Below, one piece after another: positions 42,188 to 60,300 of a stretch of 64,000 bases of DNA. The notes beneath the pieces were generated by a model that ran no database searches, was not told the DNA's origin, and saw only the letters and a list, made by a program, of their open reading frames with translations. The translations under genes were made by a program, and so were the position numbers. The stretch covers positions 124,001 through 188,000 of the forward strand of contig JAUIAH010000004.1 of NCBI GenBank assembly GCA_030425385.1, written 5' to 3'. The DNA comes from Verrucomicrobiia bacterium (GTDB lineage Bacteria > Verrucomicrobiota > Verrucomicrobiia > Verrucomicrobiales > DEV007). Within the stretch, counting starts at the first letter, position 1, and the number at the start of each line of letters is the position of its first letter.

Positions 42188-42916
42188 ATGACTCCTTTCC
42201 CCTCCCAAGGCCGTTTCCCAGAGACGCGTTGGACGCTCGTTCTCTCCGCGCGGGATGAGTCTAGCCGGGCAGGGCAAGCGGCGTTGGCCGAACTGTGTGA
42301 GCTTTACTGGCAGCCACTCTACTTCTTTGTGAGGCGGCGGGGGTATGGGCCGGAGGAGGCGGAGGATCTCACGCAGGATTACTTTCGTCATTTGCTAGAG
42401 AAAGGGAATTTGTCGGAGCCCGATGGGTCACGAGGGCGTTTGCGGTCCTTTCTTCTGGTGGGGTTGAAGCACTTTCTTGCCGATCAGTGGGATAAACGCC
42501 GGGCCTTGAAGCGTGGCGGCGGCGTGCCGACCTTGTCACTCGATCACGAGGCGGCCGAGAGACGTTATGGGACGGAGCCGGCGGACGACTTGTCGCCAGA
42601 TGTGCTCTATGAGAAGCAGTGGGCATCGACGGTCCTGGAGTCCATTCTGGAGCGCCTGCGAATGGAACAAGAAGCCGCGGGGAACGCACGGCTATTTGAG
42701 ATTCTGCAGCCCTACCTGGGGTGGAATGCGAGTGAATCAAGCTATGCGGAGGCGGCGGCGCAGTTGGCCATTAGTGAGAATGCCGCTCGTTTGAGAGTCA
42801 TGCGCCTGCGACGGCGCTATGGCGAACTGCTGCGAGAGTGCATCGCCGACACCGTCGCGTCGGAAGAAGAGTTGGTGAGTGAGATGGACTATCTATTTCG
42901 CATCGTTCGACGCTAA
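42188..42916 (+). CDS. ECF sigma factor of the planctomycete/verrucomicrobial kinase-linked type
   Basis: The 242-residue ECF sigma factor begins FPETRWTLVLSARD, a start typical of ECF groups found next to Ser/Thr kinases in planctomycetes and verrucomicrobia. Region 2 contains YWQPLYFFVRRRGYGPEEAE and LTQDYFRHLLE; region 4 contains YAEAAAQLAISENAARLRVM. No anti-sigma gene is adjacent. Its 3' end overlaps that of the convergent kinase gene by 24 bases, so the two are an obvious regulatory pair: the kinase may activate the sigma factor by phosphorylation. This is inference from known groups. Confidence 0.9.
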   Translation: MTPFPSQGRFPETRWTLVLSARDESSRAGQAALAELCELYWQPLYFFVRRRGYGPEEAEDLTQDYFRHLLEKGNLSEPDGSRGRLRSFLLVGLKHFLADQWDKRRALKRGGGVPTLSLDHEAAERRYGTEPADDLSPDVLYEKQWASTVLESILERLRMEQEAAGNARLFEILQPYLGWNASESSYAEAAAQLAISENAARLRVMRLRRRYGELLRECIADTVASEEELVSEMDYLFRIVRR

Positions 42917-45574
42917 CAAGCCTTCCACCGAGAGATCGAAGACGAGATCGGAACTCTTCCCATTGCATTGGTGCACTTGAGCCGTCAGGACATTCGTGGG
43001 CTTCAACAGGGAGGGATCGATCTCCAGACAGTAATAGAGCCGTTCCTCTATCCCACCCACTTCGCGCACAGCGAACGTGGTGGCGTCCGTTTCGTGAGCT
43101 GCCGGGAGATGGTGTCGCGCGATTTCCTGGCCATTTAGAGAGATCACGAGACCATCATCGCGCCGGACGCGAAGGCGCGCGGTGGAGAGCGCCTCACCAT
43201 CATAGGTGAACCGTGTGTGGAAATAGGCGGCAGCGTGTTTGGCGTCGGCGTCCTCACCAAAGGAGATGGTCTCCGCAATATCACTTTCACCATAACCCAA
43301 AGGAGCCTTGCCCTGTTGCCAGGTTGTGGGCTCGAAGGTGTCGTCCTGCCAGTCGCTGGGAGGCGCCGTGCCGTCACTATGATAGTGCCATTGCGACCCG
43401 CGAGGGAGCAGGGTAACGGTGGCTTCGCGTGGCCATGGGTGTAGCCCTTGCAGCTGACGCACCATCTCCATGGCGGCTTCGCGACTGGGAGCATTCTCCA
43501 GGCACCAGTTCGTGATGGCATGACTGTCCCCGAAAACCTGGTGGGCGAGGGGAAGGAGTTTGGGAGCCTCGGCAGTGCCTGCTTCGACTTGCCCATCGTT
43601 GACTAACATCTCGGCATAGCGATGCCAGCTCTCAAGGGTCTCGCGTGCATGCGGTCCCAAGACGCGTGCCCGATCATCCCAAGCTTCTTTGGCCGTGGCA
43701 ATGGCTTTCGTTTGGTTGCCGATTTCCCAATAGGCACCCGCAAGATCATGGCGCTTGTTCATGGTATCATAGCTGTCGCGCCCCATGAGTTGCTCATGCT
43801 TTTCCATGGAAGCGACGAGGATGGGAAAGGCCTTCTCAAATAGCCCTTGATTGGCGTAGCAAGCCCCGATGTTGTGTTGCACGGTCGCGTAGTAGGGAGT
43901 GCTCGTTCGGCCTAACGCAATGATCAATGCCTCACAACGCAGATAATGAGGCAGCGCCTTCGCAGGACGTCCTGAGTTCATGTAATTGCTGGCAATGCCG
44001 TCGTGCGTGAGGATCGCCTGCCGCTGATCTCCTTTGCCCACACCTTCGAGGTAGGCGAGGTAATCACGGTTGATCTTCTCGGCTTCGTCGTAGCGTCTGA
44101 GAAATGTGAGGGTGCGGGCGAGGAAGATCGTGGCGAGATGGGACGTATTGGCTTCCAAGCCTAAGTCGCGCTGCACGCTGGGAACCAAAGTCTCGAACAC
44201 CGCAAGCGCTTTCTGATAGTCCCGTAGTTTGAAATACGCGTAGCCGCGTTGATACTCGAAGTAGTAACCCTCCTCTTTGTGCTGCAGCCCTAACGTCTCG
44301 ATGAGAGGTTTTCCCAAGTCACAGACGGAGAGGACCTGGGGAAATTGTCCCGTGGTGGAATAGACGCGGAGGATCGTGAGGAGCAGTTCAAGCTTGATCT
44401 CGGGTTCGTCCTCGAAACGGCCTTCTAGTTTGGTCTGTGCCCGCTCCATCACCTCTCCAAGCTTCGTGTCCAAATTGTGTCCGTCGAAGAAAGGATCGCC
44501 AACACGCAAGACGTCTTCTTGAAGAAATGATAGGGTAGCCTCTGCTCGCGCCGCCTGGCGCTGAGCGCGGAGGGCCAGGACGCTGCTAATCACCGTCCCC
44601 GCAGCGAGCAGAAGAACGATACTTGTCGCGAAGGCGAGCGCTCCCCGATGGCGCCGGGCGAATTTGCCGACCAGATAACGCGTGGTCGGTGCGGCGGCGG
44701 TCACAGGTTCGTCGCGAAGAAAGCGCTCGATGTCAGCGACGAAGGCTCCGGCGCTATCATAGCGCTTGGTGGGATCCTTCTCTAGCGCTTTCATCACGAT
44801 CCAGTCCAGATCTCCTTTGAGAGAGGCGCTTCCTGTTCGTTTGCTAGGGCGCGGTGGATCCTCCTCACAAAGGATGGCTTCCAGCTCGGATAAGCTCGCT
44901 TTGGAGAGCCGCTCCTTGTCAAAAGGGAGCTTGCCGGTGAGCATCTCGTAGAGAATGACGCCCAGCCCATAGATGTCCGTGCGCGTGTCGAGATCGCTGC
45001 CGCTCACATCGAGCTGCTCCGGGCTCATGTAGGCGGGTGTTCCTAACACTTGAGCGTAGCTCGTGAGGAGGGTCTTCTCCGTCAGTTGGCCATCGCCACT
45101 CACGGCCTTGGCGATGCCGAAGTCGATGATGCGAGGCTGAGGCGCGCCGTCCGTGTCCACGATCAGGATGTTGGAAGGCTTGAGATCACGGTGAATGACG
45201 CCTTTCTGATGGGCGTGTTCCATGGCTCGTCCAATCGCGGTGAAGAGGTGAAGCTTCTGATCGAGATCGAGGGCGTGCTCTCGGAGAAAGGTATCCAAAG
45301 CTTCCCCTTCCACGCACTCCATGACGAAGTAGGGGCGTCCCTCCGCCGTCTCTCCGCCGTCTAACACCTTGGCGATGCCGGGATGATCCATGAGAGCAAG
45401 GGCCTGGCGTTCGGCCTCAAACCGTGCCACCACCTGCTTGGTGTCCATCCCTGCCTTGATGACTTTCAAGGCGACGGTCCGCTTTACGGGATTCTCTTGC
45501 CGAGCTTCATAGACGATTCCCATCCCGCCCTCGCCGAGCGGTCGGATCAATTCGTAAGGGCCAATGCTTTCCAT
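42893..45574 (-). CDS. Membrane Ser/Thr protein kinase with TPR and C-terminal beta domain
   Basis: The 893-residue protein has an N-terminal Hanks-type kinase (residues ~7-280): glycine loop LGEGGMGIVYEA, VAIK-type lysine in TVALKVIKAG, HRDLKPSN, DFGIAKA, GTPAYMSPEQ. A membrane helix follows (FATSIVLLLAAGTVISSVLA near 315-335). The extracytoplasmic region holds TPR-like repeats (~370-680) and a C-terminal beta-sandwich (~735-885) with RRDDGLVISLNGQEIARHHL, resembling the module in the secreted phosphatase at 14.4 kb. The external part probably senses a ligand. Its gene is convergent with the ECF sigma gene and overlaps it by 24 bases, supporting a sensor/sigma pair. Confidence 0.93.
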   Translation of the reverse strand: MESIGPYELIRPLGEGGMGIVYEARQENPVKRTVALKVIKAGMDTKQVVARFEAERQALALMDHPGIAKVLDGGETAEGRPYFVMECVEGEALDTFLREHALDLDQKLHLFTAIGRAMEHAHQKGVIHRDLKPSNILIVDTDGAPQPRIIDFGIAKAVSGDGQLTEKTLLTSYAQVLGTPAYMSPEQLDVSGSDLDTRTDIYGLGVILYEMLTGKLPFDKERLSKASLSELEAILCEEDPPRPSKRTGSASLKGDLDWIVMKALEKDPTKRYDSAGAFVADIERFLRDEPVTAAAPTTRYLVGKFARRHRGALAFATSIVLLLAAGTVISSVLALRAQRQAARAEATLSFLQEDVLRVGDPFFDGHNLDTKLGEVMERAQTKLEGRFEDEPEIKLELLLTILRVYSTTGQFPQVLSVCDLGKPLIETLGLQHKEEGYYFEYQRGYAYFKLRDYQKALAVFETLVPSVQRDLGLEANTSHLATIFLARTLTFLRRYDEAEKINRDYLAYLEGVGKGDQRQAILTHDGIASNYMNSGRPAKALPHYLRCEALIIALGRTSTPYYATVQHNIGACYANQGLFEKAFPILVASMEKHEQLMGRDSYDTMNKRHDLAGAYWEIGNQTKAIATAKEAWDDRARVLGPHARETLESWHRYAEMLVNDGQVEAGTAEAPKLLPLAHQVFGDSHAITNWCLENAPSREAAMEMVRQLQGLHPWPREATVTLLPRGSQWHYHSDGTAPPSDWQDDTFEPTTWQQGKAPLGYGESDIAETISFGEDADAKHAAAYFHTRFTYDGEALSTARLRVRRDDGLVISLNGQEIARHHLPAAHETDATTFAVREVGGIEERLYYCLEIDPSLLKPTNVLTAQVHQCNGKSSDLVFDLSVEGLLASNDAK

Positions 45575-45637: not shown

Positions 45638-48600
45638 CTATTCGCCGATGAGATTGATGCACCAAGGGAGTGGAACGATGTAATCTGGCTTCGGATTGAG
45701 GTGGCGATAGTAGAAGCTACTACGATCCTTCGGAAAAATCGTCGTTTCAAAGTCCCGAGGCGCGAGAAATTCATCATCAGCATAGAGCCATCGAGGGGTT
45801 TTGAGATCCTGCGGCACAAAGAGGAAAGCACAGCGGAAAGAAGCTTGATAGGCTGCCGTGTCACTATCACCCAGCCAGAAGCAGACGGTATCGGAAGTCG
45901 CCGGGTCGTCGCTCCCATAGAAAGTGGTGTGATTCATATTCCGCTCGGCAGGTCCTTGAGAGATCGGGAATGGACTGGCCTGCAGGGACCACCCGTGACG
46001 CAACGGCATGGCGAAAGCATTCTTTCGGACGATACCGAGAGCCAAGAACGTCACTGTCGTTTCCTGAGGAGCGACGAAGAGTCCTTGATCGGGCGGAATG
46101 ACGGTCTTTCCGCGATTGGAGATCGTGGAATCGCCGTCAAGAGCCCAGTATGCGTTATGGTTTCCTGCATTGTTGTCATACAACCAATAGCTGTCCCAAT
46201 CCGCTGCGTATACATGAATGCGGTCTGCGGGGTGCCCCACGACAAAGGTGTGGGCTTGCGGTGTGAAGGCGCCCGACATGGGCGGAAAGAGGTCGTCTAA
46301 CGTCTGATGCTCCCGAAGCACAAAGGGGGCTCCAGCGAGCGTGGAAGGGACTTCGGATGCGGTGATCCGCGTGTTGTAGGGAGGGCCTGAATACAGGTCG
46401 GTGTCAGTGGCGATCGTGATCAAATGATCCTTGACCGCTGCGATGTCGAACCGGTGCCCAGCAAGATCTCCGTCAATGATCTCGATATAGTAAGATCTCA
46501 ATAGGGTGGAGAGTTCCGCTTCCAAGGGCACCCCGCCGGTAGCCGTGAGGACGTTGAGCTGATGCGTTCCTACCACAGCATCAATCGTTCCCGAGAGGAC
46601 CTCTGGCTTGTTGAATGGGTTGGCATAAGACTCCGTATGGCCCAATTCAATCTCCGTTTCTGTCCAGCCCCACACGGGCGTGTAGCTGGTTTGACTATTG
46701 AGTTGAACGGAAAGACGGATGAAACCGGACGAAAGGGAGAGGGGAGCAAAGTTCTCTAGATTGGTGACACGCACTTCTTCGATTGCATTGCCCAAATCAG
46801 TGACGGTGACGCCCGATCCCGATCCATCTCCTGGGATGGTGAGGATGGACGACCAGGTGTCGGAATCCAAGATTGGAAGATCAGCCCGGGCATCCACGAT
46901 GTAAGTGACGTCTCCGAGGCCTCCTTTCGGTCGATAAAACTTCGCCGTAATCTGAGTGCCATCGGTCTCGACGAAGAATCCACCAGGTCCAGGGAGTCCC
47001 GTGCCAGGGTGGAGACAGAGGGCATACTCAAGCAAATTATCATAAAGATCGTTGTCAGGATTGTCCTTGGGATCGGATTCGCTACCAAGGGACAAAGTGT
47101 AGAGATTCTTCCAAATCCCGTAGCCATCCTGCTTGCCGGGATCACGGAAATCGACATCGCGCAGCATCGGCGTCGCATTGTCGCCATTCGGGAGGAGGTC
47201 TCCATCTAGATCGCCCAGGGTTGCGGGATTGGGATCAAAGATCCGGTCATTCACATCCCAAAGGATCAATTCGGTATCGAACTCGTCATCAAGACCATCG
47301 CCGTCATCATCAATCATCGAGATGGTATGCACATTCCACCCATTCTCGTTGATATCTGGATCCCCATCGTTGTCTGAATCGGCATCATAAACGTCCGTTT
47401 GGCCATCTTGATCGCTGTCCACCGGGTTGAGTCCGCCCAGGTAAGCAGAGTCGAGCCCATTGTTCACCGGGCCAGCATCGCCGTTTGGCTCCACGTAGGC
47501 TGCAGTGGATTGAGCCTCCACATTGTCAGGAATCCCATCGTTATCGGAATCAATATCCAAATGATCCGGATAGCCATCGCCGTCAAAGTCGGCGGTCACC
47601 TCGCAGGTGAGATGGGTGATTTCGGCGGCCAGCGTGGAGGGAATGCCCCCAAAGTTGGCAACATTGTAGAAACGGCGAGGAATCGTCTGAGATCCCTCAG
47701 GATCAGTTAGGTTCTCATCAATGGCGCCGGTGTAGATTCCACCCGTAGAGGCAAGGGCGGCGGCGGCGGCATTGGCCTCTGCATCGCTGGGCGCCCATCC
47801 TGTATTGAAGCGAACAGAGGTGACGGTCATATTGAAGTCTTTCTTCAGATCGTTCATAAATTTGAACGGATCGCCCGGTGTGTTCGGATCAACGAGATTG
47901 CTATCTCCAAAGAGCGCCTTGGCGGCATCGGTCATAAAGAGGAGGTGGGTTTCTGCGCCCGGGGTATGCGAAAGCGTCGAGGTCGCCCCGCTCACACCCG
48001 TGCCGCTTCCACTGAGAGCATTACGTAGCAACTGAGCCGTGCGGTGAAGCTCATCTTGACCAATGCCACGCCTTTCAAAAGTCTTGGCCGCAATCGGATC
48101 CGTCGTGAAATCACTCTCAAGATAGAGGTAGGCATTGGTCGCGTCCCAGTCCGACCAATAGTGGGCCACGGCCATCTTGACGGAGCCGAATGATCCGAGT
48201 TCATCAATGACATCGCGGGTGAAGGCTGAGAAACTGTCCCATTCGGAGGCGCTGATGCTTCCTGAATTGTCCAATAAGAGAATAACTTCGACATCGGCTC
48301 CACAACTGCCCGTGGCGAAAGCTTCGTCCACATCAAGGATGCCATCGTCGTCATCGTCAATGTCGTCAATATCAGGGGCACCATCGCGGTCCGTGTCTTT
48401 CGCGTCGTCGTCGGTGATCGAGACGATCCCCGCATCATCGGCGAGAATGGCTCCTCCTGTCGGATTGCTCGCGACCACAAAGAAACTTTCCTGACCTTCT
48501 GGGAGATCATCTTCAATCAGCGAAATACTCACACTGACCGATGTAGAGCCTGCCGGAATCGTCACCGTGCCTGAGGTGGCGACATAGTCGAAGCCGTCCT

Positions 48601-51600
48601 GAGCCGTATTATTGAAGGCTTCATAGTCTACACTCACGGGAGTGGCATGGGTGGTTGTGAGACTGATGTCTACGATTGCTGTGCTGTCTCCCTCGGAGAC
48701 AATAGCATCCGCCACATTCACTCGCAACGGCCCCGTGGGGGGAGCTGCCAAGGCGCAGCGAGCCCCGTCGCTTGTCCAACCAGAAGGCGCTTTGGAAAAG
48801 AATTCCACATCGGGCTCAGTGGCCCCTGTCAATAGGTGGACATTGGCAATGCGATAGATGATTCCATTCTCCTCTCGCAATGCATAGAATGAGCCTAGAC
48901 CATCGCAATAGCTCGCCCCGAAGTAGCCAGAACCCCGGATGCCTTTGAGTTTCGCTAGTTTCGTGACCAGACCCGTGGACGGATCAATTCGGAAAAGTTC
49001 TTCGGTGCGATCAATGGTATAGAGTTTTCCGTCGATGGCATGAAAGGCCCAGTCACCCCACGAATCACTGTCTGATAGAGTGAGATCGGGCAAGACGGCG
49101 AGGTAATTGGGTGATCGTGGATTCAAATCCACACGGATCACCTGGGTGTCGAATGCTTTGCCCAGGTGGAGCACCCCATTAGCATCCACATCGCCTATAT
49201 GATAGCCATCGGCATTGAGACCTGGGATGACAAATTCATCCACAGAATAGTCAGGGTTGATTCGCACGACGGTGTTCCAAGGGGAGACCTGCTTGAATCC
49301 CCATAAGTAGTGATCCGCGCGATTGTATCCAATGCCATTGATTCTATAAGCAGCGATATTGGCCTGGAGCAAGTTGGTGTTCGCATTCTCGAAATCCACT
49401 CCATAAAGATCTGCGGATGCATTCTGAATCAAATAGGGCGTTTCATCGCATTCATTGTCGAGAATGGTCACGATTGCTTGGGCCTTGGTAAAGCTGCCTT
49501 GGCTTGAATTGGAGAAGTCGACGACGAAATCCTCGTTTCGCTCGAAATTGCCGTCATCCAATATAGTGATAGGGATGGTGAGCGAGGTGTCGCCTGCCGG
49601 GATGGTGAGCGTGCCAGTAGCGCTTGTGTAATCTTGAGACGCCACGGCGGTCCCATCGCTTGTGGCATAGTCCACGGTGATGTCGGAGGCGCTCGCATTC
49701 GATAAGAGAAGAACAACGTCGGCGGTTCCGGATCCCTCATTTGCCGCCAAATCAGCCACGCTGAGTTCCAAGGTGTCATTCTCCGTGATGGTCACGTCAG
49801 CGCTTGCCGTGCCCAGGCTTGCATTCGTGGGATTGCTCAAGTTGACCGAGAAGACTTCGTCGCCCTCTAACAACGCGTCGTCGAGCAAACTGATCGTGAC
49901 AGATTCTGAGGTGGAGCCCGCTGGGAATGTCACCGTTCCTGAGAGAGCGGTATAGTCGGACCCGGCCATGGCGGTGCCATCATTTGTGGTGAAATCAACA
50001 TGTACGTCGCTTGCTGCCGGATTGCTGAGATTGACCATTACATCCACACTGCCTGCTCCCTCATTCGCTGAAGAATCAGCGATTGCGAGCAAGGCATTGT
50101 CGTTATCAGATATAGTGATTGTCGCGTTGCCATCAGAGATGGTCGCCCCGGTTGGATTATTGAGAACGATCGTGAAGCTTTCGGGGCCTTCCGAAAGATT
50201 ATCTTCTAGCAACGGCACCGTGATCGTCCCTGTGGTGGCCCCCGATGGAATGGTGAGGGTCCCGTTGGTCAACGTGTAGTCGGAACCTGCAAGGGCCGTG
50301 CCATTGGAAGTGGTGTAGTCGACGGATACCGGGGAGGTGCTCGCAGCAGAAAGATTCACCGCGATCGTCGCGTGAGGCGCGCTTTCACTAACGCTTTGAT
50401 CGGAGACTGCCAGCGTCTTAATGGAGGCATTGATGGTCACAGCATGGTCCTCGACTTCGCCATACCCAGAGTAGTTTGTTGGTCCTGGATTGTTTGTCGA
50501 GGTGAGGCGGATACGCATATGAACGGATCCTGCCGCGGCTATGGTAGGCACATTGACGGGATAAGAGGCATTCCCTCCGACACCATCGGCAATCATCACG
50601 TTGGCGATCACATGGTCTGAAACGCCTCCATTGGTTTCGCCCAGAATCCCATCACCGTCCCAGTCAATCCAAGCATTGAGATAGGCTGGGGCTCCAGAGG
50701 AATTGACTCGATTGATCACGATGGATCCGCTGCTTCCTTCGGTGAGGCTAGCACTGATGAGGCCATCCTCGTCATCGGTTCCTGATAGATCATCCCCTGT
50801 CGCGCTGGCATTGACCACGGGAGAAGAATCGATATCGCCAATGGCGGAGCCCAGATGAAGGTTGCCAGACACCGAGGATGAGGCATCGGGAAAGAGTTGG
50901 GAATCTCCATAATCTGAAGCATCGGTGCATAACGTGCTTCCGCCCTCCCATAGAGGCAATTTCACGGCGATATTGCCGATGTAGTCCTTCACCATGATGG
51001 AACCCTCGTTGGCTCCCCCGTGTGCCTGGAAAGTCGCATGCGGGGCCAGGATACTCCCGTAGAGGGGACGATGAAGATTCACTGAAGTAGCTTCTGGAAA
51101 GTGCCAGAGAATCTTTGGGCGCAATCCAACATCACGCAACAAATTGATATTCTCGCCTGACCAATCGTAGTTGATAGCCGATCCAGAAAGATTGATGATG
51201 ATTGCGGAGGGATTCGTTCCATTGAGGTCAAGGTCAATCGTCTGAACGTTTCCATTGTGTAATAGGCTATTGCCGTCCAATTGGAAGACTGCTGGTGCGC
51301 CATCCGCAACGCCGCTGCCAACAGTAAGATAGGTGACGGCAGGTGATGTTGGGATAGTGACCGTTGAGTTGGCTGGCATCGAGGCATATATTGCCGATTC
51401 GTTTAGAATGCCGTCAAAGACGGATGAGAAGTCAAAGGCTGGTGACGTTACGAGCGCGCCCCCTCCAGAGAAGTTGACGGTTCGGCCATTCAAGGCTCCG
51501 GAACTTGGTGCCCAAAGGCTGCCATTCACAACATTGATGGAACCTCCTCCTGCTTCGACTCCATTCTCAACAGCCATTGTAATCGTGCCAGCACCAGTTA

Positions 51601-54600
51601 CGGCATGTCCTGTCGAGAAGGAATCCGAACCGATGATATTGTGGACGACAGAGCGTCCTCGTATATCGGATGGAGTAGACAGATCATTGGATATGATGGC
51701 GTTATAGATCGAAAGCTGGGAGGAACACGTCGTGGTGATCGTGACAAGATAGTCTTCGACTTCCCCAGAGCCATCGGCACCATCGGGACCTGGAGACGAA
51801 GTCGATGTCAAACGGACGCGGATTGGGATGGTTCCTTTTGCCGTCGCCGGTACGGTGAAAGGGAAGGTGAAGGGTCGATTCTGAACTGCGGACGAAGAGA
51901 CTGAGATTTCCGTTGCGGTGAGATGCTCATTGCTATCGTTGAGATCGCCATCTTCGTTCCAATCAGCCCACGCATTCAGATAGACGGTGGCACCCGTATC
52001 ATTGGTCACCATCGCCGTCGCGGATGCACTCTGTCCAGGAGTGAAGTCGCTGAAGGTGATGCCATCTTCATCGTCAGTGCCCCTCAGATCATCGCCGATG
52101 GCGGCGCCATCAGGTGTGGCTCCCAGTTCGGCGTCGATCTGCGCCCCAATACGGAGGTTGCTTGTCACATTACTGGAAGCTGAAGGGAGAGCGCTATAGT
52201 CGCCGTAGTCGGCCACGGGGAGTAGTTGAGGGCCTCCCGCCAAACAAATGTTCTGAGCAATCTCATCGAGTTGCGCAACGGTGAGATCAAAGACCGGGCT
52301 AGTGGTCATGAAGCGGGGCGTGCTCGCACTTCCGTCAGGATCTGCAGGATTGGGTTCCACGGCGCCCACGTAAGTTCCGCCAGCTGAAGCAATCGCGGCG
52401 GCGACGGGGGGACCTGCTGGATTGGTGGGAACGATCACACTGACAAATTTCGCGCCCCGGTTGTTCTTGAAGTCGGTGTAGTTCGCAAAGGCTCCCGCAG
52501 TGCCGACTCCAGGCGAGGCTGAATTGACGAGCCAACTTGAATTGTGTCCTCGAGTCGCATCGGTGAAGAGAAAGAGGATCAGCGGGCGACCCGATTGACG
52601 GGTTAAGGTCTTTTCCGGACTAAGGATTTGCGAGTCTGATAGGCCGTCGAGAGCTTTGCCAATGAGACCCACCGCTCCGTGGGCGTCATCTCCTGTATGG
52701 AGTGTGTTGGGGACCGACGTGGATCCGCGTCTCCAGGTGATCGATGCCTTCGCGACGTCCCTGTCCTCAGTAAAGTCTCCCTCGATCCAGACTTGGGGAA
52801 TGGGAGGAAAGTTTGATGTTCCTGCATACTCGGTAATGGCGATACGGCTTGCGGGGCTCTCTGCTTTGACGCGATCAATGATGCCGTGGATACTCGTCAC
52901 CATATTGGACCATTCTGTGCCACTGATGGAGCCGCTTTGATCGAGCAGAAAGATGATATCGGCAGCGCAATCAGAAATAGAGATGTTTGCCTGTGCGGTG
53001 GCGATGGTGGCGCCAATAGGATTGCTTACCTGAACTTGAAAGAATTCAAGTGGTTCGATGATGGAATCACTCAGAATGGGAATGGCAATCGTCGCCGAGG
53101 TGCTCCCTGCAGGAATGGTGACGGTTCCTGCGGTGTGGGTATAGTCGGATCCTGCTAGGGCACTGTCATTGAAGGTCGCATAGTCTACGCTCACGGGCGC
53201 TGAACTGAATGCTGAAAGGGAAACAGTGACATTGGCGAAACCATCGAGTTCACCCGCTGCATGTTCCTGGACGGAGACCGTGACTGGAACACCGAAAGGT
53301 TCGGGAAAGACTGGGCCCGCAAGGTCTCCAGGGGAGGTTGGAAGCCCAGTGTTCACATGGGAGGAAACGGCACTCGTAGTGAGATCCACCGTGTATAGCG
53401 GCGAATCCGCCACGACGGATTGAATGCCATATAAACGACCATCACCACCAATCTGCACTCCGTTCACTGGTGCACCACTGGTGATATTCTGGCGAGGTCC
53501 GCCTCCCAGAATATCATAACGGAAGACGGTGCCACTGATCGCATCAGCTCCATAGAGAATGCCATTGGTGCTGATTCCAAAGTCGCCCCAGGCCACAGGA
53601 GAGGCATCTCCGTTGATATCCGCGACTTTGATAACATCAGTGACGGCAGTGAAATCGACATTAAAAGTCACACGATAGAGATCATCGGTAGAATCGGTGC
53701 CCACATACATGGCGCCGTCATACCAGGCAGCAGCATCCGCTAGTCCAGCCGTGATCGGAGAGGTCCAACCACTGTCGGATAGATCACCGATGACGCCGAT
53801 CTCGGTATTGGTGGAGAGATCAAATTGATAGAGCTCGTAGCTAACATCATCAATATACCAGAGATGGTCGTTCGCTTCGTCAAACGCCAATCCGTTCATG
53901 CGTCCTGTCGCCGTTGTATTGGCAAGGACGGTGGGATCGCCGGTGTCGAGGTTGATGGTGTAGAGGGTATTGGTGTGTTGATGGATGAAGTAGGCGGTTC
54001 CCGGATCGGATGTGCATCCATCTAGGAAACTAGCTTCCAAAGCTTGGTCGAAGAGGGCCTTTCCCTCCGCTGTCAGAAAGTTTGTTGGGTCATTGAGATT
54101 GATTTGCGGCAGATAGTAGCCTGCGCCGTTCTCTGTGATGCCGTAATAGACCCGCCGGCCTGCGGCAACGGAGCTATCGGCCAAGGTGTCGCCCGCTTCA
54201 TAGATCCCATAGAGGAAGTAGGCGTTCGCTCCAGGTTGATCGACATCGTAGATTTCGACCTCGCCTCCACTGCCAGCGCCATTGGCAAAGACGAATACTT
54301 TGGAGGCTCCAGTGGGGCCAGCGCCTGCAACCGGCGGATTCATCAGGGTGACGGATCCGTTCGCCAGTCCGGTGGGGAGGAGAGGGGAAGTGTTGTCCTC
54401 AATCCAGACCGTATTGTCGCTAAAGTTCACGACGTGTCCGCTAGCAATGCCCATTTCCTCCACGGAGAGACCTTCCATGTATAAGATAGGAGTAGTCGTT
54501 GCCTTCAATGCGGTGGTCACCCCACCGAGGTCACCCGGCAACTCGCCATGTGCAGTGCCCGAAGCGATGATGCCCTGAAAAGCCTCCAATGGCTTGGTGA

Positions 54601-57600
54601 TGGCAGCCCCCGTCATAGGATCTTGCAATCCTGTCCCCGTGATGATGGCTGGCGTGATGGTATACCCTTTCCATACCAAATAGCCGATCACGCCGTGATC
54701 ATACGCATCCGCATTGGAACCCTTGGCTGAGCCGCAGAGATAGAGAAGATCGCCGCATAATGTCGCCGGTGAAGGGAGCGTGAATCCAAAGTCCACCGTC
54801 AAGTTTCCGTTGGCATCAATAGCGTCATCAGAGAGCGTGCCTTGGCCTGTCTCACTCCCACTATTGGAGGGCTCATCACCCACGGCTAAGCGAATGGAGG
54901 CGGAACTTATTCCAGTGGTGGCTGGGTGATGGGAATCAATCCCATTCTCGTTGGTATCGTCGTCTAAATCATCGGCAATATTCCAGTCGGGAGCGCCTTG
55001 ATTGCCTCCCGCTCCAGGCGTTGAGACATGCCCCAATAGATTTCCGCCACTTTGAAATTCCTCCGCGGGGATGTGGACGAAATAGTCTCCCGCAGAGAGG
55101 CCGGTAAATGTATAAAACCCGCCGCCTGAAGTGATCACGGTCGCTACGGGACTGCCGCCACCATTGGGATCGTCTCCAGCGCTCCATAGCTCTACCGCAA
55201 CTCCATTGATTCCGCTATCACCTGAATCATAGAGACCGTTTGCATTGGTATCCATGAAGACGAGGTTGCCGAGGGTCATCGTCGATGGAGAGAGTTCCAC
55301 GACCACATCGAAGGACTCCGTCGTGGTCGTCGATTGATATGTGTAGACGCCCTCGTTAAGCCCCAGCGAATTCAGCGTTTGCCCGCTGTAGGTTTGGCTG
55401 ATCGTCGAGAGATCAATACTTGGAGTCCCATCCAATAGATAGAATTCCCCCTGATGAACTTGGAACCCACTTTGGGTTGCACTACTTGGGCCTGGTGAAA
55501 GGCCCCCGCTTCCCCAAGGGCCAGGATCGGTCACCTGAAAACCGAGATAATTCCCCGACACTAAGTCCGCAAGCTGTGGAACATTCGGCTCAAGCCATGT
55601 CCCATCAGGTTTGACGTGCAACGGCGAACCAGGAGCATAGTGCGCCGTTTCGATCATCCCGACGCCACTCACCACCACATCACTGCCATTCTCTCGAATG
55701 TAGATTGTTGCGTTTTGAGCATTATTGTCTACGTGAGTGGCGGGCATTCCAGCCAAATCTCCCGGGCTTGCCCCGAGAGTTGTATTCGTCCACGGAGAGA
55801 CATCGCCTGTGGTGGCATTGATAGTGAACAATGGGATGGTTGTCGTCGTTTCGTCGATGCCCAAGAGATTGCCAGCGGCATCAAAGGTCAGCGCAGTGAG
55901 GCCGGTGGCTGACGCGATGGGTGCTATTGGGCCATTGGTGTGGAGATCGTAGCTAAAGACTGTTTCAGCTTGTACTCCATAAAGAATCCCATTGGTGGTG
56001 ATGGTGAAATCTCCCCAACTGTGCAAAGCAGTGTTTCCTTGCATGTCAGCGACTTTCACCACATCGGCGATGGCATTCTTCGTTGCGTTGAAAGTGACTT
56101 TGTAAAGATCGTCTGTCCAACTGGTGGCGATATAGTATGCGTCGTCGTACCAAGCTCCTGCTAGCACCGAACTCGATACGGGATGGGTCCAACCGCTCCC
56201 AAGATTGCCAATAAGATTCAATTCCGTGCCCGTTGCCACATCGAATTTGTAGAGGTTGTGGCTGGATTGATCCGTGTACCATAACGTGCCCGATGCCCCA
56301 TGGCTGGGATCCAGAGCAAGCGCATTCATATTCCACGTGTTGGTGGTCGATCCGACGGCAGCAGTATCGCCATTGGTAAGATCCACACTATAGATAGTGT
56401 TGTCATCTTCGCGCACGAAATAGGTGCCCGCTCCAGCGCCTACTGTGGCATCGCAATCGACGGTGCGTATACTGAAGTAGTAATGGGAGGTGCTGTGGGC
56501 ATCCGTCCCATCGCCAACGATGCGAATGCAAGAAACACTCTGATTCCCGCGATAACGGAAGACCACAAAGTCACGGTTCCCAGATTCCGCCGTGGCGGTC
56601 AACGTGACAGATGATCCACTGCCGAATGTGACGTCAGGAGCGCTCTGATCAGAGGCTGGCGTCACGCCATCTCCCGTGGTCCCAGGAGAGAGATCGCCAG
56701 ACATCACCAACGTCCAGTGATCATTGGGAATGGCGTTGCCGTTGGCGTCCAACGCTTCAAAAGTCACCACATCGCCTGTGACGACCAGCCCTTTGTCATC
56801 GATATCAAATAAATGAAGCTCGACTTCTTGGAGCGGTTCCGAGAAACAGATCTCCGTGGTGGTTACCCCCCCATTGGTTAGAACTCGATAAGTTTCTGCA
56901 GGATCCGTCGAGGTGATGCCCGTGAGGTCAAGGTAGAGAGGGTGGGTTACGATGGCGAAACTACTCCCGGGATGGAAATCAACATTCTCGATGCGTTGAG
57001 TGTTGCTTCCTGCGGTGTGAGTGAACGTCACATCGGCCGTGATGGATAACGCAGGTTCGAAGGCGGCAGCTGTCCATTCAAGTGATGCGCCGACCGGAAG
57101 GTCCAAAGGAATCGAGGGGCCTGTTAGATCATTGTTCAAATAGGCGAAGGTATCTGTGCACAAGCCTTCCAAGCAAGGGAACGTGAGATCCAAGGTCGGC
57201 ACATGCACGTCAGCCGTCGTCGTGAGGCTCTTCGCCGCAATGGAACCATCGATAGGTCCTCCCGTTGAGATATCAGCGAAGGGGGCAAGCGCGTTGCCGA
57301 GTAGGTTCTTTGATTGAAGATTGATCGACGTGGCTTCATAGAAATTCCAAATGACGAGGTCACGGACATTCAAATTCGTGAATCCCGCGGTCATGTCGGC
57401 GCCGTTATTCCAATCTATCGCCGTTCCGGAAACATTGATCACCGCAGCGGCCGCCCCATTGAGATTCATCTCAATTGCCGTGGCATTCACGTTTGAGAAG
57501 ACGTCAGCTGCGGACACATGAAAGACAGCCACTTCACCGGAGGCGGCGGCTCCAAGGAAAGTGACAGGGCCGGCAGTGGTGGGAATGGTGGCCCCGCTGT

Positions 57601-60013
57601 TTGTCGACATGCCAGTCATCATGGAGGATGCATTCTTCAATTGGGCTTCGATGGATCCCACACTCACCGAGGGATCGTTGGTGAGTGAACACGCCCCCAG
57701 AAGATTGATTACTCGACCATTATCCGTTCCTCCAAGGCGCACCCCCCCGAATGACACGCTCAGGGGATCCCCACCAATGATATCTCCCGCCACTATCAAG
57801 GTGTCTTCGCCACAAGTGGTAGCGGATTCTTGGAGTGCGAAAAGAGAAGTATCCGTTCCGGTGAGATTTCCGCCAACAAAAGTCTTACCCTCGATATCCG
57901 AGTTGGTGTGGAGATCCTCGAAGGTGATGACGTTGTAGCGCATCAAGGGGCCAATGTCCGAACACAGCACGCCGAGTTCGCCTCCTGATCCCAATCCATC
58001 CGCAAAGATCTCAAAGGTCAATTCGTGGCCACACAACTCTTCGGTCACATTGCCATCATCGTCTTCATCAAACGTATCGACTAATCCGCGGTCCCATTGG
58101 CAGGCAAAGGCGGTTGGGCTTTCGAGCCAGCCAAAGACACGCTGTTGATAGGTTCCCGTGCTAGCGGTGCTCGACACTTGCAAATCGAAGTCGATATTCG
58201 CTTCCACCCATTGCGTGTTGGGAATGATGGTGAGAGGTGTGGAACTATCCCAGACGAACTTTAATAGAGTGCGCCCCGATCCTTTCCAATTGGGAGTGGT
58301 CGTCACATTCGGCATGGGGGGGGCGAGAGCCCCACTTTGATTATCACTAATCTCAACGTTTCCAGCATACACGAGTTGCTCAGGTAGCAACGTTACCATG
58401 GTGGGATTCACCAGAGGATTGATGTTCGGGGGCGGTGATTGGGCGACCATCCGAACGCTTACCGTTTGGCCAGGGGTGTAGGGCCCCTGGGTTTGATAGC
58501 GCATTTCGAAGTCTGCGGTGGTCTGGGCGGCGTCGATCGTTGAGATGAGAAAGTCGGAGTCGGAGTAAGGAGTGGCTCCTGCGGTGGCGTTGAGAGTGGC
58601 CATCACGGTAGAGGTGTGTCCCGCGCTAACCGGGGTGCCTTCTCGATCATTCGCCACGCCTTTGGTGTATTGAGTCGTGACATCGCCGACGAACCAGAAC
58701 CACGCGCCATGGTCACGATGATAGTTCTCGCCAGCTGGCATACCGCTATCAAAGTCCAATTGCATCGCGGTCACATACTCATCAGTGTTGAGCGAGAGTT
58801 CTGACGCATGGCGTTGGGTGTCATCGTGAACTTCAATACTGCCTCCAGGCCAGTCGCGCCAGGTCGCGTTCTGATTCGTTTGATACCGGGCGGTGAACGT
58901 CACCACTCCTGGGAATGCGTCGCGATGATTGAAGTATTCAAAGATAAACTCTTTCCCGAAAGAGACTTCGATCACGTATGAGTCGAGGGGCGTGCCGCCG
59001 AGGCTTCCGTGGCTCACACCGTAGTATTGGCCGCCATCGATATGCACCAATCCTTCGCCTTCCCATAGATCGACAGACACGCCATTACTCAGCACCATTG
59101 GCGCGACGCCGTTGGTGGCCGTGACTTGCGTTGCAGGGCTGCTGGTCCGCGACTTCACCACGCCATCTTCGTGATAGGTGAGTGTCCCGCACATAAGAGC
59201 AGAATCGCCAGTTTCGGCATCGCTTGGAAAACGCGTCTCGACCAGGCATTCGCCGAAGAATCCTGTCGTGGGAAGAGACGCATTGAAGGTGAAGATGACC
59301 GAATGCGACTCGGAGTCGTACGTGCTTGACTGAATGTGAGGAGAATTGCCTTTGGAAAGATAGCGCACTTCAGGCGGAAGAGGGCAAACGAGCGTGGCTT
59401 CGCTATACGTGGGGCCCGATGGAAATCCATAGGTAAGCCGATAGGTGAAAGCCACTCCCGCATCCACGGTATCCGTGAGCCCATAACCAGAACCCGTATC
59501 CACCTGGGTATTGAGACTAGCACTGCCAGCGTGGGCGGCATTGGGATGGATCGCAATATCATCCACTATAAAGTTGTCCCCTGCGCTGGCTTGGGCGTAG
59601 ACGTGCACGTAGGCCGTTCCCGCGGGTGCGGTAAAGTTATGACTATAATTTGTGTAAGTGGTCGTTCCCGCGGGCAGGACAAACTCATGCTGAGCCAGCC
59701 AGGTATCACTAGCATCATACCAATGAAACATCACGCGACCATTTGCCGAGGCTCCAGGGGCCATCTTGCCGACTGCGGAAAGGTCATAAGCCATGCCTGG
59801 AACTACTGCGCGCACGGTTTGCGAGGTCCAGTCACCGTAGATCGCGAAGTTCCCAGTGTGCGCATCCGTGGTTGGAAATCCCCAGTCCCAAGGATCACGT
59901 TGGCCCGACTCGAAGCCACCATTCTGAATCAAATTGGAAGAGGCATACGAGGGGAGTGCCAGGCTCAAGAGAAGAACCAGAGATATAAGAATATTCACGC
60001 GACACGACTTCAT
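45638..60013 (-). CDS. 4791-aa secreted mosaic protein (Calx-beta, VWA, GEVED, SdrD_B-like, TSP3)
   Basis: The ATG at 60013 gives a signal peptide (residues 1-24) and 4791 residues. Modules in order, by rough residue: CBM-like NGGFE domain 26-160; DUF11-like 165-310; choice-of-anchor-A 690-960; propeller-like segment (YFVREDDNTIYSVD) 1193-1420; SdrD_B-like 1580-1690; propeller 2 2006-2235; Calx-beta 2238-2348; VWA 1 2348-2593 (MIDAS DQSGS); GEVED 2599-2762; anchor-A 2 2764-3025; GEVED 2 3031-3196; three Calx-beta 3200-3520; propeller 3 3523-3753; Calx-beta 3762-3870; VWA 2 3890-4130 (DNSGS); calcium-binding TSP3 repeats 4135-4330; TIGR02597-like C-terminal region 4430-4791. It is probably a calcium-dependent surface adhesin or matrix protein. 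Its promoter overlaps a CRP-type palindrome. No membrane anchor or sorting signal is visible at the C-terminus. Confidence 0.85.
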   Translation of the reverse strand: MKSCRVNILISLVLLLSLALPSYASSNLIQNGGFESGQRDPWDWGFPTTDAHTGNFAIYGDWTSQTVRAVVPGMAYDLSAVGKMAPGASANGRVMFHWYDASDTWLAQHEFVLPAGTTTYTNYSHNFTAPAGTAYVHVYAQASAGDNFIVDDIAIHPNAAHAGSASLNTQVDTGSGYGLTDTVDAGVAFTYRLTYGFPSGPTYSEATLVCPLPPEVRYLSKGNSPHIQSSTYDSESHSVIFTFNASLPTTGFFGECLVETRFPSDAETGDSALMCGTLTYHEDGVVKSRTSSPATQVTATNGVAPMVLSNGVSVDLWEGEGLVHIDGGQYYGVSHGSLGGTPLDSYVIEVSFGKEFIFEYFNHRDAFPGVVTFTARYQTNQNATWRDWPGGSIEVHDDTQRHASELSLNTDEYVTAMQLDFDSGMPAGENYHRDHGAWFWFVGDVTTQYTKGVANDREGTPVSAGHTSTVMATLNATAGATPYSDSDFLISTIDAAQTTADFEMRYQTQGPYTPGQTVSVRMVAQSPPPNINPLVNPTMVTLLPEQLVYAGNVEISDNQSGALAPPMPNVTTTPNWKGSGRTLLKFVWDSSTPLTIIPNTQWVEANIDFDLQVSSTASTGTYQQRVFGWLESPTAFACQWDRGLVDTFDEDDDGNVTEELCGHELTFEIFADGLGSGGELGVLCSDIGPLMRYNVITFEDLHTNSDIEGKTFVGGNLTGTDTSLFALQESATTCGEDTLIVAGDIIGGDPLSVSFGGVRLGGTDNGRVINLLGACSLTNDPSVSVGSIEAQLKNASSMMTGMSTNSGATIPTTAGPVTFLGAAASGEVAVFHVSAADVFSNVNATAIEMNLNGAAAAVINVSGTAIDWNNGADMTAGFTNLNVRDLVIWNFYEATSINLQSKNLLGNALAPFADISTGGPIDGSIAAKSLTTTADVHVPTLDLTFPCLEGLCTDTFAYLNNDLTGPSIPLDLPVGASLEWTAAAFEPALSITADVTFTHTAGSNTQRIENVDFHPGSSFAIVTHPLYLDLTGITSTDPAETYRVLTNGGVTTTEICFSEPLQEVELHLFDIDDKGLVVTGDVVTFEALDANGNAIPNDHWTLVMSGDLSPGTTGDGVTPASDQSAPDVTFGSGSSVTLTATAESGNRDFVVFRYRGNQSVSCIRIVGDGTDAHSTSHYYFSIRTVDCDATVGAGAGTYFVREDDNTIYSVDLTNGDTAAVGSTTNTWNMNALALDPSHGASGTLWYTDQSSHNLYKFDVATGTELNLIGNLGSGWTHPVSSSVLAGAWYDDAYYIATSWTDDLYKVTFNATKNAIADVVKVADMQGNTALHSWGDFTITTNGILYGVQAETVFSYDLHTNGPIAPIASATGLTALTFDAAGNLLGIDETTTTIPLFTINATTGDVSPWTNTTLGASPGDLAGMPATHVDNNAQNATIYIRENGSDVVVSGVGMIETAHYAPGSPLHVKPDGTWLEPNVPQLADLVSGNYLGFQVTDPGPWGSGGLSPGPSSATQSGFQVHQGEFYLLDGTPSIDLSTISQTYSGQTLNSLGLNEGVYTYQSTTTTESFDVVVELSPSTMTLGNLVFMDTNANGLYDSGDSGINGVAVELWSAGDDPNGGGSPVATVITSGGGFYTFTGLSAGDYFVHIPAEEFQSGGNLLGHVSTPGAGGNQGAPDWNIADDLDDDTNENGIDSHHPATTGISSASIRLAVGDEPSNSGSETGQGTLSDDAIDANGNLTVDFGFTLPSPATLCGDLLYLCGSAKGSNADAYDHGVIGYLVWKGYTITPAIITGTGLQDPMTGAAITKPLEAFQGIIASGTAHGELPGDLGGVTTALKATTTPILYMEGLSVEEMGIASGHVVNFSDNTVWIEDNTSPLLPTGLANGSVTLMNPPVAGAGPTGASKVFVFANGAGSGGEVEIYDVDQPGANAYFLYGIYEAGDTLADSSVAAGRRVYYGITENGAGYYLPQINLNDPTNFLTAEGKALFDQALEASFLDGCTSDPGTAYFIHQHTNTLYTINLDTGDPTVLANTTATGRMNGLAFDEANDHLWYIDDVSYELYQFDLSTNTEIGVIGDLSDSGWTSPITAGLADAAAWYDGAMYVGTDSTDDLYRVTFNVDFTAVTDVIKVADINGDASPVAWGDFGISTNGILYGADAISGTVFRYDILGGGPRQNITSGAPVNGVQIGGDGRLYGIQSVVADSPLYTVDLTTSAVSSHVNTGLPTSPGDLAGPVFPEPFGVPVTVSVQEHAAGELDGFANVTVSLSAFSSAPVSVDYATFNDSALAGSDYTHTAGTVTIPAGSTSATIAIPILSDSIIEPLEFFQVQVSNPIGATIATAQANISISDCAADIIFLLDQSGSISGTEWSNMVTSIHGIIDRVKAESPASRIAITEYAGTSNFPPIPQVWIEGDFTEDRDVAKASITWRRGSTSVPNTLHTGDDAHGAVGLIGKALDGLSDSQILSPEKTLTRQSGRPLILFLFTDATRGHNSSWLVNSASPGVGTAGAFANYTDFKNNRGAKFVSVIVPTNPAGPPVAAAIASAGGTYVGAVEPNPADPDGSASTPRFMTTSPVFDLTVAQLDEIAQNICLAGGPQLLPVADYGDYSALPSASSNVTSNLRIGAQIDAELGATPDGAAIGDDLRGTDDEDGITFSDFTPGQSASATAMVTNDTGATVYLNAWADWNEDGDLNDSNEHLTATEISVSSSAVQNRPFTFPFTVPATAKGTIPIRVRLTSTSSPGPDGADGSGEVEDYLVTITTTCSSQLSIYNAIISNDLSTPSDIRGRSVVHNIIGSDSFSTGHAVTGAGTITMAVENGVEAGGGSINVVNGSLWAPSSGALNGRTVNFSGGGALVTSPAFDFSSVFDGILNESAIYASMPANSTVTIPTSPAVTYLTVGSGVADGAPAVFQLDGNSLLHNGNVQTIDLDLNGTNPSAIIINLSGSAINYDWSGENINLLRDVGLRPKILWHFPEATSVNLHRPLYGSILAPHATFQAHGGANEGSIMVKDYIGNIAVKLPLWEGGSTLCTDASDYGDSQLFPDASSSVSGNLHLGSAIGDIDSSPVVNASATGDDLSGTDDEDGLISASLTEGSSGSIVINRVNSSGAPAYLNAWIDWDGDGILGETNGGVSDHVIANVMIADGVGGNASYPVNVPTIAAAGSVHMRIRLTSTNNPGPTNYSGYGEVEDHAVTINASIKTLAVSDQSVSESAPHATIAVNLSAASTSPVSVDYTTSNGTALAGSDYTLTNGTLTIPSGATTGTITVPLLEDNLSEGPESFTIVLNNPTGATISDGNATITISDNDNALLAIADSSANEGAGSVDVMVNLSNPAASDVHVDFTTNDGTAMAGSDYTALSGTVTFPAGSTSESVTISLLDDALLEGDEVFSVNLSNPTNASLGTASADVTITENDTLELSVADLAANEGSGTADVVLLLSNASASDITVDYATSDGTAVASQDYTSATGTLTIPAGDTSLTIPITILDDGNFERNEDFVVDFSNSSQGSFTKAQAIVTILDNECDETPYLIQNASADLYGVDFENANTNLLQANIAAYRINGIGYNRADHYLWGFKQVSPWNTVVRINPDYSVDEFVIPGLNADGYHIGDVDANGVLHLGKAFDTQVIRVDLNPRSPNYLAVLPDLTLSDSDSWGDWAFHAIDGKLYTIDRTEELFRIDPSTGLVTKLAKLKGIRGSGYFGASYCDGLGSFYALREENGIIYRIANVHLLTGATEPDVEFFSKAPSGWTSDGARCALAAPPTGPLRVNVADAIVSEGDSTAIVDISLTTTHATPVSVDYEAFNNTAQDGFDYVATSGTVTIPAGSTSVSVSISLIEDDLPEGQESFFVVASNPTGGAILADDAGIVSITDDDAKDTDRDGAPDIDDIDDDDDGILDVDEAFATGSCGADVEVILLLDNSGSISASEWDSFSAFTRDVIDELGSFGSVKMAVAHYWSDWDATNAYLYLESDFTTDPIAAKTFERRGIGQDELHRTAQLLRNALSGSGTGVSGATSTLSHTPGAETHLLFMTDAAKALFGDSNLVDPNTPGDPFKFMNDLKKDFNMTVTSVRFNTGWAPSDAEANAAAAALASTGGIYTGAIDENLTDPEGSQTIPRRFYNVANFGGIPSTLAAEITHLTCEVTADFDGDGYPDHLDIDSDNDGIPDNVEAQSTAAYVEPNGDAGPVNNGLDSAYLGGLNPVDSDQDGQTDVYDADSDNDGDPDINENGWNVHTISMIDDDGDGLDDEFDTELILWDVNDRIFDPNPATLGDLDGDLLPNGDNATPMLRDVDFRDPGKQDGYGIWKNLYTLSLGSESDPKDNPDNDLYDNLLEYALCLHPGTGLPGPGGFFVETDGTQITAKFYRPKGGLGDVTYIVDARADLPILDSDTWSSILTIPGDGSGSGVTVTDLGNAIEEVRVTNLENFAPLSLSSGFIRLSVQLNSQTSYTPVWGWTETEIELGHTESYANPFNKPEVLSGTIDAVVGTHQLNVLTATGGVPLEAELSTLLRSYYIEIIDGDLAGHRFDIAAVKDHLITIATDTDLYSGPPYNTRITASEVPSTLAGAPFVLREHQTLDDLFPPMSGAFTPQAHTFVVGHPADRIHVYAADWDSYWLYDNNAGNHNAYWALDGDSTISNRGKTVIPPDQGLFVAPQETTVTFLALGIVRKNAFAMPLRHGWSLQASPFPISQGPAERNMNHTTFYGSDDPATSDTVCFWLGDSDTAAYQASFRCAFLFVPQDLKTPRWLYADDEFLAPRDFETTIFPKDRSSFYYRHLNPKPDYIVPLPWCINLIGE

Positions 60014-60033
60014 AGAGTGATAGGTATGGTGTA

Positions 60034-60049
60034 TGTGATAATTATCACA
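60034..60049. promoter_or_regulatory. CRP/FNR-type palindrome TGTGATAATTATCACA
   Basis: This is a perfect 16-bp palindrome that fits the CRP consensus TGTGA-N6-TCACA exactly, and it is close to FNR-type sites. It overlaps the -10 box of the giant-gene promoter, 21 bases upstream of the start codon, a position that would normally give repression. Which CRP/FNR-family protein binds is unknown. Confidence 0.65.
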
Positions 60050-60067
60050 AATATATACAACTATCAA
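60039..60067 (-). promoter_or_regulatory. Sigma-70-type promoter of the giant secreted-protein gene
   Basis: On the minus strand TTGATA (60062-60067) and TAATTA (60039-60044) are separated by 17 bases, in an A+T-rich stretch directly upstream of the start. The implied leader is only about 20 bases and contains no Shine-Dalgarno sequence. Confidence 0.6.
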
Positions 60068-60225: not shown

Positions 60226-60300
60226 TGGCTCCTGCAGTTGGATTCGAACCAACGACCTAGTGGTTAACAGCCACCCGCTCTACCGCTGAGCTATGCAGGA
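60226..60300 (-). tRNA. tRNA-Asn (GTT), CCA encoded
   Basis: The minus-strand sequence folds as a complete tRNA. The acceptor stem is TCCTGCA/TGCAGGA with G discriminator and an encoded CCA (60226-60228). The D-arm contains AGCTCAGCGGTAGAGC, the anticodon loop CTGTTAA has anticodon GTT, and the T-arm is GTTGGTTCGAATCCAAC. All stems pair. It lies in the gap between the giant gene and the helical membrane-protein gene; no integrase is next to it. Confidence 0.97.

Follow-up and report, generated by a model that had tools for sequence, protein, structure and literature searches.

A 4,791-residue mosaic protein of a Verrucomicrobiales bacterium, its C-terminal tail and a family of small secreted-type partners

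To our knowledge, the means by which bacteria of this group export very large proteins and retain them at the cell surface are an open question, and the gene described here raises it. The window (the 64,000-nucleotide stretch of a Verrucomicrobiales genome that was analysed) contains a single minus-strand frame, 45638..60013, that encodes 4,791 amino acids from its ATG with no internal stops (45638..60067 when read from the first TTG). The product begins with MKSCRVNILISLVLLLSLALPSYASS, a typical Sec signal peptide as judged by eye, and its mature form has a mass of 500 kDa and a calculated pI of 4.07. The body of this giant is an ordinary though very large mosaic of surface modules. Its unusual part is a C-terminal tail shared with other giants, together with the small partner of that tail.

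Architecture and assembly of the giant gene

The giant gene and its modules are confirmed as real. The initial annotation had proposed a 14.4-kb gene for one mosaic protein with five Calx-beta and two VWA modules, and both the open frame of 4,791 codons and a Pfam scan of the whole protein agree with it, the scan finding Calx-beta in five stretches (E 7e-86), VWA, GEVED and the anchor-A type family PF20597 in two each and SdrD_B in one. TIGR04215 (choice_anch_A) also matches two stretches (1e-67), with 228.5 bits against a cut-off of 29. Scanned alone, the first VWA module scores 29.8 bits, over the Pfam cut-off of 23.8, and the second 23.0 bits, just below it. A MIDAS had been claimed for both, and the DxSxS motif, the one part of it that was looked at, is present at residues 2358 and 3915. 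Propeller-like segment 3 is a match to DUF6923 (6.9e-22), to which segment 1 is weakly similar (1.3e-5, below cut-off). The proposed module list stands for anchor-A, GEVED, Calx-beta, VWA, SdrD_B and the propellers and is weaker for TSP3, where DxDxDG motifs (at 3873, 3886 and across 4142-4235) are accompanied by weak profile matches (E 0.025). The features of the locus are as follows.

60226..60300, minus strand: tRNA-Asn, upstream of the giant
45638..60013, minus strand: giant gene, 4,791 aa; ATG at 60013, stop 45638-45640
59939..60013, minus strand: signal-peptide-like N-terminus, aa 1-25, read by eye
59549..59938, minus strand: CBM_4_9 / NTTRR-F1-like, aa 26-155; both matches below cut-off
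57998..59572, minus strand: aa 148-672, sharing 40% identity with the C33 N-terminus (own-genome paralogue)
57200..57940, minus strand: choice-of-anchor A / PF20597 copy 1, aa 692-938 (Pfam, NCBIfam)
55748..56422, minus strand: propeller-like segment 1, aa 1198-1422, 46% to segment 2
55067..55276, minus strand: SdrD_B-like, aa 1580-1649 (Pfam)
53993..54775, minus strand: aa 1747-2007, Pfam and NCBIfam families all below cut-off or absent, no match in PDB or the 20 other giants
53315..53992, minus strand: propeller-like segment 2, aa 2008-2233, opens block copy 1 (self-comparison)
52979..53281, minus strand: Calx-beta 1, aa 2245-2345 (Pfam and self-comparison)
52313..52969, minus strand: VWA 1, aa 2349-2567, DxSxS at 2358, closes block copy 1 (Pfam)
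51740..51982, minus strand: GEVED 1, aa 2678-2758 (Pfam)
50894..51715, minus strand: choice-of-anchor A copy 2, aa 2767-3040; the half collinear with paralogue C6 (2765-4791) opens here
50414..50812, minus strand: GEVED 2, about aa 3068-3200 (Pfam and self-comparison)
49466..50416, minus strand: Calx-beta 2-4, aa 3200-3516 (Pfam and self-comparison)
48728..49441, minus strand: propeller-like segment 3 (DUF6923), aa 3525-3762, opens block copy 2
48425..48730, minus strand: Calx-beta 5, aa 3762-3863 (self-comparison)
47675..48304, minus strand: VWA 2, aa 3904-4113, DxSxS at 3915, closes block copy 2 (23.0 bits)
47294..47590, minus strand: aspartate-rich TSP3-like repeats, aa 4142-4240 (motifs, weak profile match)
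46724..47158, minus strand: 'LLEYAL' module, aa 4286-4430, matches no library family
45641..46708, minus strand: divergent TIGR02597 tail, aa 4436-4791, extreme C-terminus
42893..45574, minus strand: Ser/Thr kinase with TPR, 893 aa, downstream gene (Pfam, NCBIfam)

Two stretches of the body had been left for later profile annotation. In residues 148-672 neither Pfam nor NCBIfam has a match that clears its cut-off, and the stretch at about 310-690 likewise gained none, although own-genome C33 is 39% identical over residues 300-700. The stretch at about 1750-2000 stayed blank, residues 1745-2015 matching neither a Pfam or NCBIfam family at its cut-off, nor a PDB sequence (up to E 1), nor any of 14 own-genome and six other giants.

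Near the giant, the window also encodes an ECF sigma factor carrying a long extension at its C-terminus (61551-63491, minus strand) and, after it, a 384-aa protein that matches no family (60400-61554, minus strand). An ECF sigma factor and a Ser/Thr kinase adjoin both the window giant (window 42188-45574) and its paralogue C38 (L043 761-4423), and other tail loci have either an ECF or a kinase gene beside the giant. We considered these neighbours as a specific link and rejected it; given 41 matches to that ECF family in the genome, the adjacency is probably not specific.

The initial annotation read the order of modules as serial duplication of larger blocks. A chunked self-comparison with direct comparison of the blocks recovered the order propeller, Calx-beta, VWA twice (whole-protein self-BLAST showed the self match alone). 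Residues of about 2006-2567 and 3525-4113 align as one segment of 562 residues at 28% identity (E 3e-38), and propeller segments 1 and 2 are 46% identical. Block copy 2 shares 63% identity with its counterpart in paralogue C6, where the comparison showed a single block of this kind and no copy 1, whereas copy 1 and the C6 block share 28.5%. This far greater closeness of copy 2 to C6 indicates that the duplication is old, and a recent origin in place is ruled out. The proposed duplication of blocks is supported. Residues 2765-4791 are collinear with C6 over its entire mature length (frame residues 62-2191) in two overlapping segments of 53 and 60%, the alignment being split because the Calx-beta arrays differ. 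Similarly, residues 3421-4791 are collinear at 60% with a 3,642-aa frame from another Verrucomicrobiales MAG (L095), and residues 148-672 at 40% with the C33 N-terminus. Large portions of the giant therefore occur as, or in, separate proteins, and in these comparisons concatenation is a stronger pattern than block duplication. The body may have been assembled by both, the concatenated units being paralogous surface proteins.

The same comparisons bear on the caveat, raised by the initial annotation, that the giant is an assembly artefact or a chimera of several genes. The assembly is a draft of 74 contigs, and the collinear long frames back the joins in the second half of the giant, support for those in the first half being less direct. 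Such an origin is nevertheless very improbable for the gene as a whole, given 4,791 codons in one open frame and frames of up to 8,624 aa, stop-free within the match, in other genomes. An artefact is unlikely in the second half in particular because that half is collinear with an intact paralogue of the same genome (C6, 53-60%) and with a frame of another MAG (L095, 60%).

A C-terminal tail common to a family of giants

The last ~500 residues of the giant form a tail that consists of the LLEYAL module and a divergent TIGR02597 domain. The last 506 residues have 20 matches in the giant's own genome, 17 of which, the window giant included, are at E 1e-17 or better. These 17 comprise 15 large frames, a 701-aa frame (C30) and C21 (L039 6378-6704), a 128-aa frame that corresponds to the last ~110 tail residues, is 66% identical to the window's tail and appears to be a decayed or partial tail copy. 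The 15 giants have frames of 1,118-7,695 aa with the tail at the C-terminus and, by eye, a signal-like start (in the printed frame of C2 no ATG precedes the signal-like stretch). Their tails are 27-63% identical to that of the window giant and fall into more and less similar groups. All 105 pairs of tails match each other, while 41 of the 105 pairs of bodies match and 64 do not; as the set was picked by its tail, the figures for the bodies are the informative ones. Across 56 loci, 45 rows score at least 80 bits against the tail model (15 seeded the model, two genes are counted twice and rows below 80 bits were dropped), and in 44 of the 45, 0-5 residues separate the end of the match from the stop, against 29 in the other. 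The end often reads P-x-P-W-x-P. On this evidence, the LLEYAL module and the divergent TIGR02597 domain would constitute a transferable tail of a giant family whose bodies are often different.

The initial annotation had named a TIGR02597-like end. Homology to that family holds, hhalign aligning the tail with five canonical own-genome members at 99.1% over 284 columns, and the curated cut-off of 50 is missed (40.2 and 40.8 bits). That the tail is common to a whole family of giants was not visible from the single gene. The LLEYAL module matches no family in Pfam or NCBIfam. With 150 of 215 candidates scored, it has at least 100 own-genome matches, and it is where the protein terminates at no fewer than three loci (L026, L027, L028). 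Other large own-genome frames, of 2,439, 3,200 and 2,292 aa, end in a TIGR02597 domain that scores over cut-off (C59:124180, C55:730597 and C40:68676, respectively). Own-genome C5 also holds a 6,012-aa frame (L046-L047) of another sort of giant, which begins with an LEPRLLLSADG-type stretch, matches Calx-beta and gives no match to the tail.

When the tail was modelled with AlphaFold at lengths of 506 and 356 aa (seven sequences each), mean pLDDT was 55.6 and 55.1, respectively, and such poor models give no backing from the fold for an anchor or a translocator; Foldseek matches of the 506-aa model had low scores, were largely antibody chains and were set aside. Neither the tail nor its profile matches PDB sequences up to E 1, and no relatives were found in the viral contigs searched. 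Among titles and abstract openings, a scope lying outside preprints and most subscription papers, we found nothing on the tail or the partner, nor, in a search reaching few subscription papers and no preprints, a paper naming TIGR02597 or Verru_Chthon; the peptides FELGTF, LLEYALG and NLLEYALG were likewise found in no paper, preprints again being out of reach.

The distribution of the tail was surveyed in 387 genomes of the phylum, with the best five or fewer candidates scored per genome. The profile matches 63 of these genomes at E 1e-3 and 23 at 100 bits or more, a line chosen after the table was seen, and at that level the tail is on giants in 16 sampled genomes besides the own. Outside the own genome, 30 of 36 tails of at least 100 bits are on frames of 800 aa or more (median 2,953), compared with 7 of 62 tails below 100 bits. 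Four genomes (G292, G140, G260 and G088) carry tails of at least 100 bits solely on frames of 341-359 aa; frames with TIGR02597 over cut-off are mostly of about 330-500 aa. The largest tail-type frames elsewhere reach 8,624 aa.

Small partners encoded beside tail genes

The flanks of own-genome giants contain a family of small secreted-type proteins, mostly of ~230-390 aa, that we refer to as partners. They share an N-terminal domain with a FELGTF-like stretch and conserved W positions, which in the seven partners scanned matches no Pfam or NCBIfam family. Three of the seven pass TIGR02595 and two of these also pass PF07589, the third falling 0.5 bits short. The family has two forms, one with a PEP-CTERM end and the other ending in an LLEYAL-type module, and at several loci both are present, the PEP-CTERM form preceding the LLEYAL-type form. 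A partner gene is directly downstream of own-genome giants C33, C73, C2, C18a, C18b and C42, and near C5 it is on the opposite strand with an exosortase in between. At that locus the exosortase gene (L045 1941-3533) is directly downstream of the tail giant, and the PEP-CTERM partner converges on it. The own genome has five exosortase matches over cut-off; with the C5 exosortase as a single query, which diverged ones could escape, a second was not found at the loci examined. In other genomes a partner is downstream of the tail gene at L095, L096 (Haloferula rosea, of a genus belonging to Verrucomicrobiales), L097, L098 (Cerasicoccus frondis) and L100, and was not found for the tail gene of L099. 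Partner domain and tail are fused in one frame in C30 (701 aa) and G234:C35 (5,672 aa), the second fusion having been checked on fetched DNA. One giant is followed by four consecutive partner genes (L153, G240:C1:333500-338500).

We searched the stretches downstream of 30 tail giants in other genomes (5 kb each, one of 3 kb), using a partner profile to which none of the 30 contributed a seed. A partner was found in 16 of the 30, always on the strand of the giant; L137 and L096 are the same DNA, 5 kb of G277 being identical to Haloferula rosea. The phylum sample places G277 in one order with the window genome, which makes Verrucomicrobiales the most likely order of the latter as well. The same profile found none in 2,087 control frames (400 kb, made up of 20 pieces of 20 kb taken from the own genome and eleven of those tested). 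Across the phylum sample, with the best ten or fewer candidates scored per genome, the profile finds partners in 19 of the 387 genomes. Each of the 19 belongs to the 23 genomes whose tail reaches 100 bits, and the other 364 have none (Fisher p 1.2e-28, uncorrected for kinship). Drawing the tail line at the looser E 1e-3 changes the counts to 19 of 63 and 0 of 324. G292, G140, G260 and G088 are the four genomes with a strong tail in which the profile finds no partner.

Proximity gives a similar picture. Among the 49 partner matches listed, 46 are inside or within 3.5 kb of a tail gene and 43 within 1 kb, gene spans being computed from tail position and frame length; by hand count, leaving out the 11 profile seeds, 35 of 38 are near or inside one. 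The three of the 49 without a nearby tail gene are on C59, C49 and G234:C47. On own-genome C59 the tail gene is absent from the 12 kb read around the partner gene (L189 6921-7862). On own-genome C49 two tandem partner genes (L190 2933-4051 and 5497-6498) are each preceded by a frame with a similar C-terminal sequence, and no tail is among the matches listed for that contig. Partners are downstream of, upstream of or divergent from tail genes, in seven family codes. Upstream or divergent cases were checked on fetched DNA at G187:C7, G199:C17, G190:C22, G240:C13 and G336:C2; the G254 partner is a profile match alone.

Counted by giant, a partner is near 7 of 15 in the own genome and 21 of 31 elsewhere, or 20 of 30 without G234:C35, which was added because a partner match fell in its frame. 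The ten giants elsewhere without a partner are all in G187, G190, G199 and G234, which have one family code. In the own genome none is near the window giant or 7 of the 14 others; the closest paralogue, C6, also has none nearby, and no partner gene was found within the window. The remark in the initial annotation that no dedicated export genes are adjacent holds for the neighbours scanned here, whereas elsewhere the tail is often flanked by a secreted partner and once by an exosortase.

The role of the tail and comparison with known systems

We consider that the tail most likely serves, in concert with the partners, as a C-terminal module for display or anchoring, with a probability of about 0.5. 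Co-occurrence, adjacency and fusion show that tail and partner are associated; export, surface location, binding, anchoring and adhesion are inferred. In this scenario the giant would be exported by Sec and act as an acidic mosaic adhesin of ~500 kDa, displayed or anchored at the outer surface by its tail together with small secreted partners. Partners with a PEP-CTERM end would be sorted by exosortase and the others would end in their LLEYAL-type module; the window giant, with no partner nearby, may use partners encoded elsewhere in the genome. More tentatively, these genes could represent a previously undescribed Verrucomicrobiota display system, in which partners, one kind of them exosortase-sorted, recognise the tail and carry or hold giants of up to ~8,600 residues, the window giant being a client without its own partner gene.

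The LLEYAL module common to some partners and giants, and the two fusion frames, which fit any direct complex, would also suit a tail that is a further binding domain, with the partners as co-adhesins or subunits of one extracellular complex whose genes adjoin through a common target and not through tail sorting or anchoring. We regard this as somewhat doubtful, since a tail that is C-terminal in 45 rows and kept while the bodies change behaves as a domain for sorting or anchoring would be expected to. It is unlikely that the tail reflects mere ancestry, that is, paralogues of one gene with shuffled bodies and partners carried along by operon inheritance. The grouping of own-genome tails (27-63% to the window's) and the 41 of 105 related body pairs are in keeping with common descent, and the association statistics ignore genome kinship, but partners are found downstream, upstream, divergent and fused in seven family codes, and inheritance of a fixed operon alone would not rearrange the pair and yet keep it. 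For the display or anchoring role that we prefer, the tail and a partner present solely in tail-carrying genomes of the sample reduce the question of display to two or three genes.

Known export systems were compared with the giant and its tail. SprA_N of the T9SS has no match in the own genome, and the control genomes were likewise without a match. The Verru_Chthon cassette was considered as exporter and found no support, Verru_Chthon_A passing its cut-off in 8 of the 387 genomes and in 5 of the 17 with tail giants of at least 100 bits (two or fewer candidates per genome); no outer-membrane export route for the giant was found among those looked for. The body modules are the same as those of choice-of-anchor A proteins (TIGR04215) and large Calx-beta/VWA adhesins, from which the giant differs in its end, a TIGR02597-like tail that matches no sorting-signal model of Pfam or NCBIfam.

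In organisation there is a likeness to PEP-CTERM/exosortase sorting, in that a common C-terminal region is carried by diverse bodies and some partners have a PEP-CTERM end. PEP-CTERM is defined by a short motif, a helix and a basic end, and a C-terminal module kept on differing bodies is the pattern described for it (PMC1569441). The giant lacks the motif, helix and basic end given there (PMC1569441), ending instead in a domain of ~360 residues that has no match to the PEP-CTERM models TIGR02595 and PF07589. TIGR02597 itself is an NCBIfam entry of kind 'paralog' with no function given, and is homologous to the tail over the 284 columns. Canonical members and the giant tail alike reach the C-terminus in the cases read; members over cut-off are mostly frames of ~330-500 aa, whereas the tail subfamily is on giants and below cut-off. 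The pairing of tail and partner gives this family without function a likely setting.
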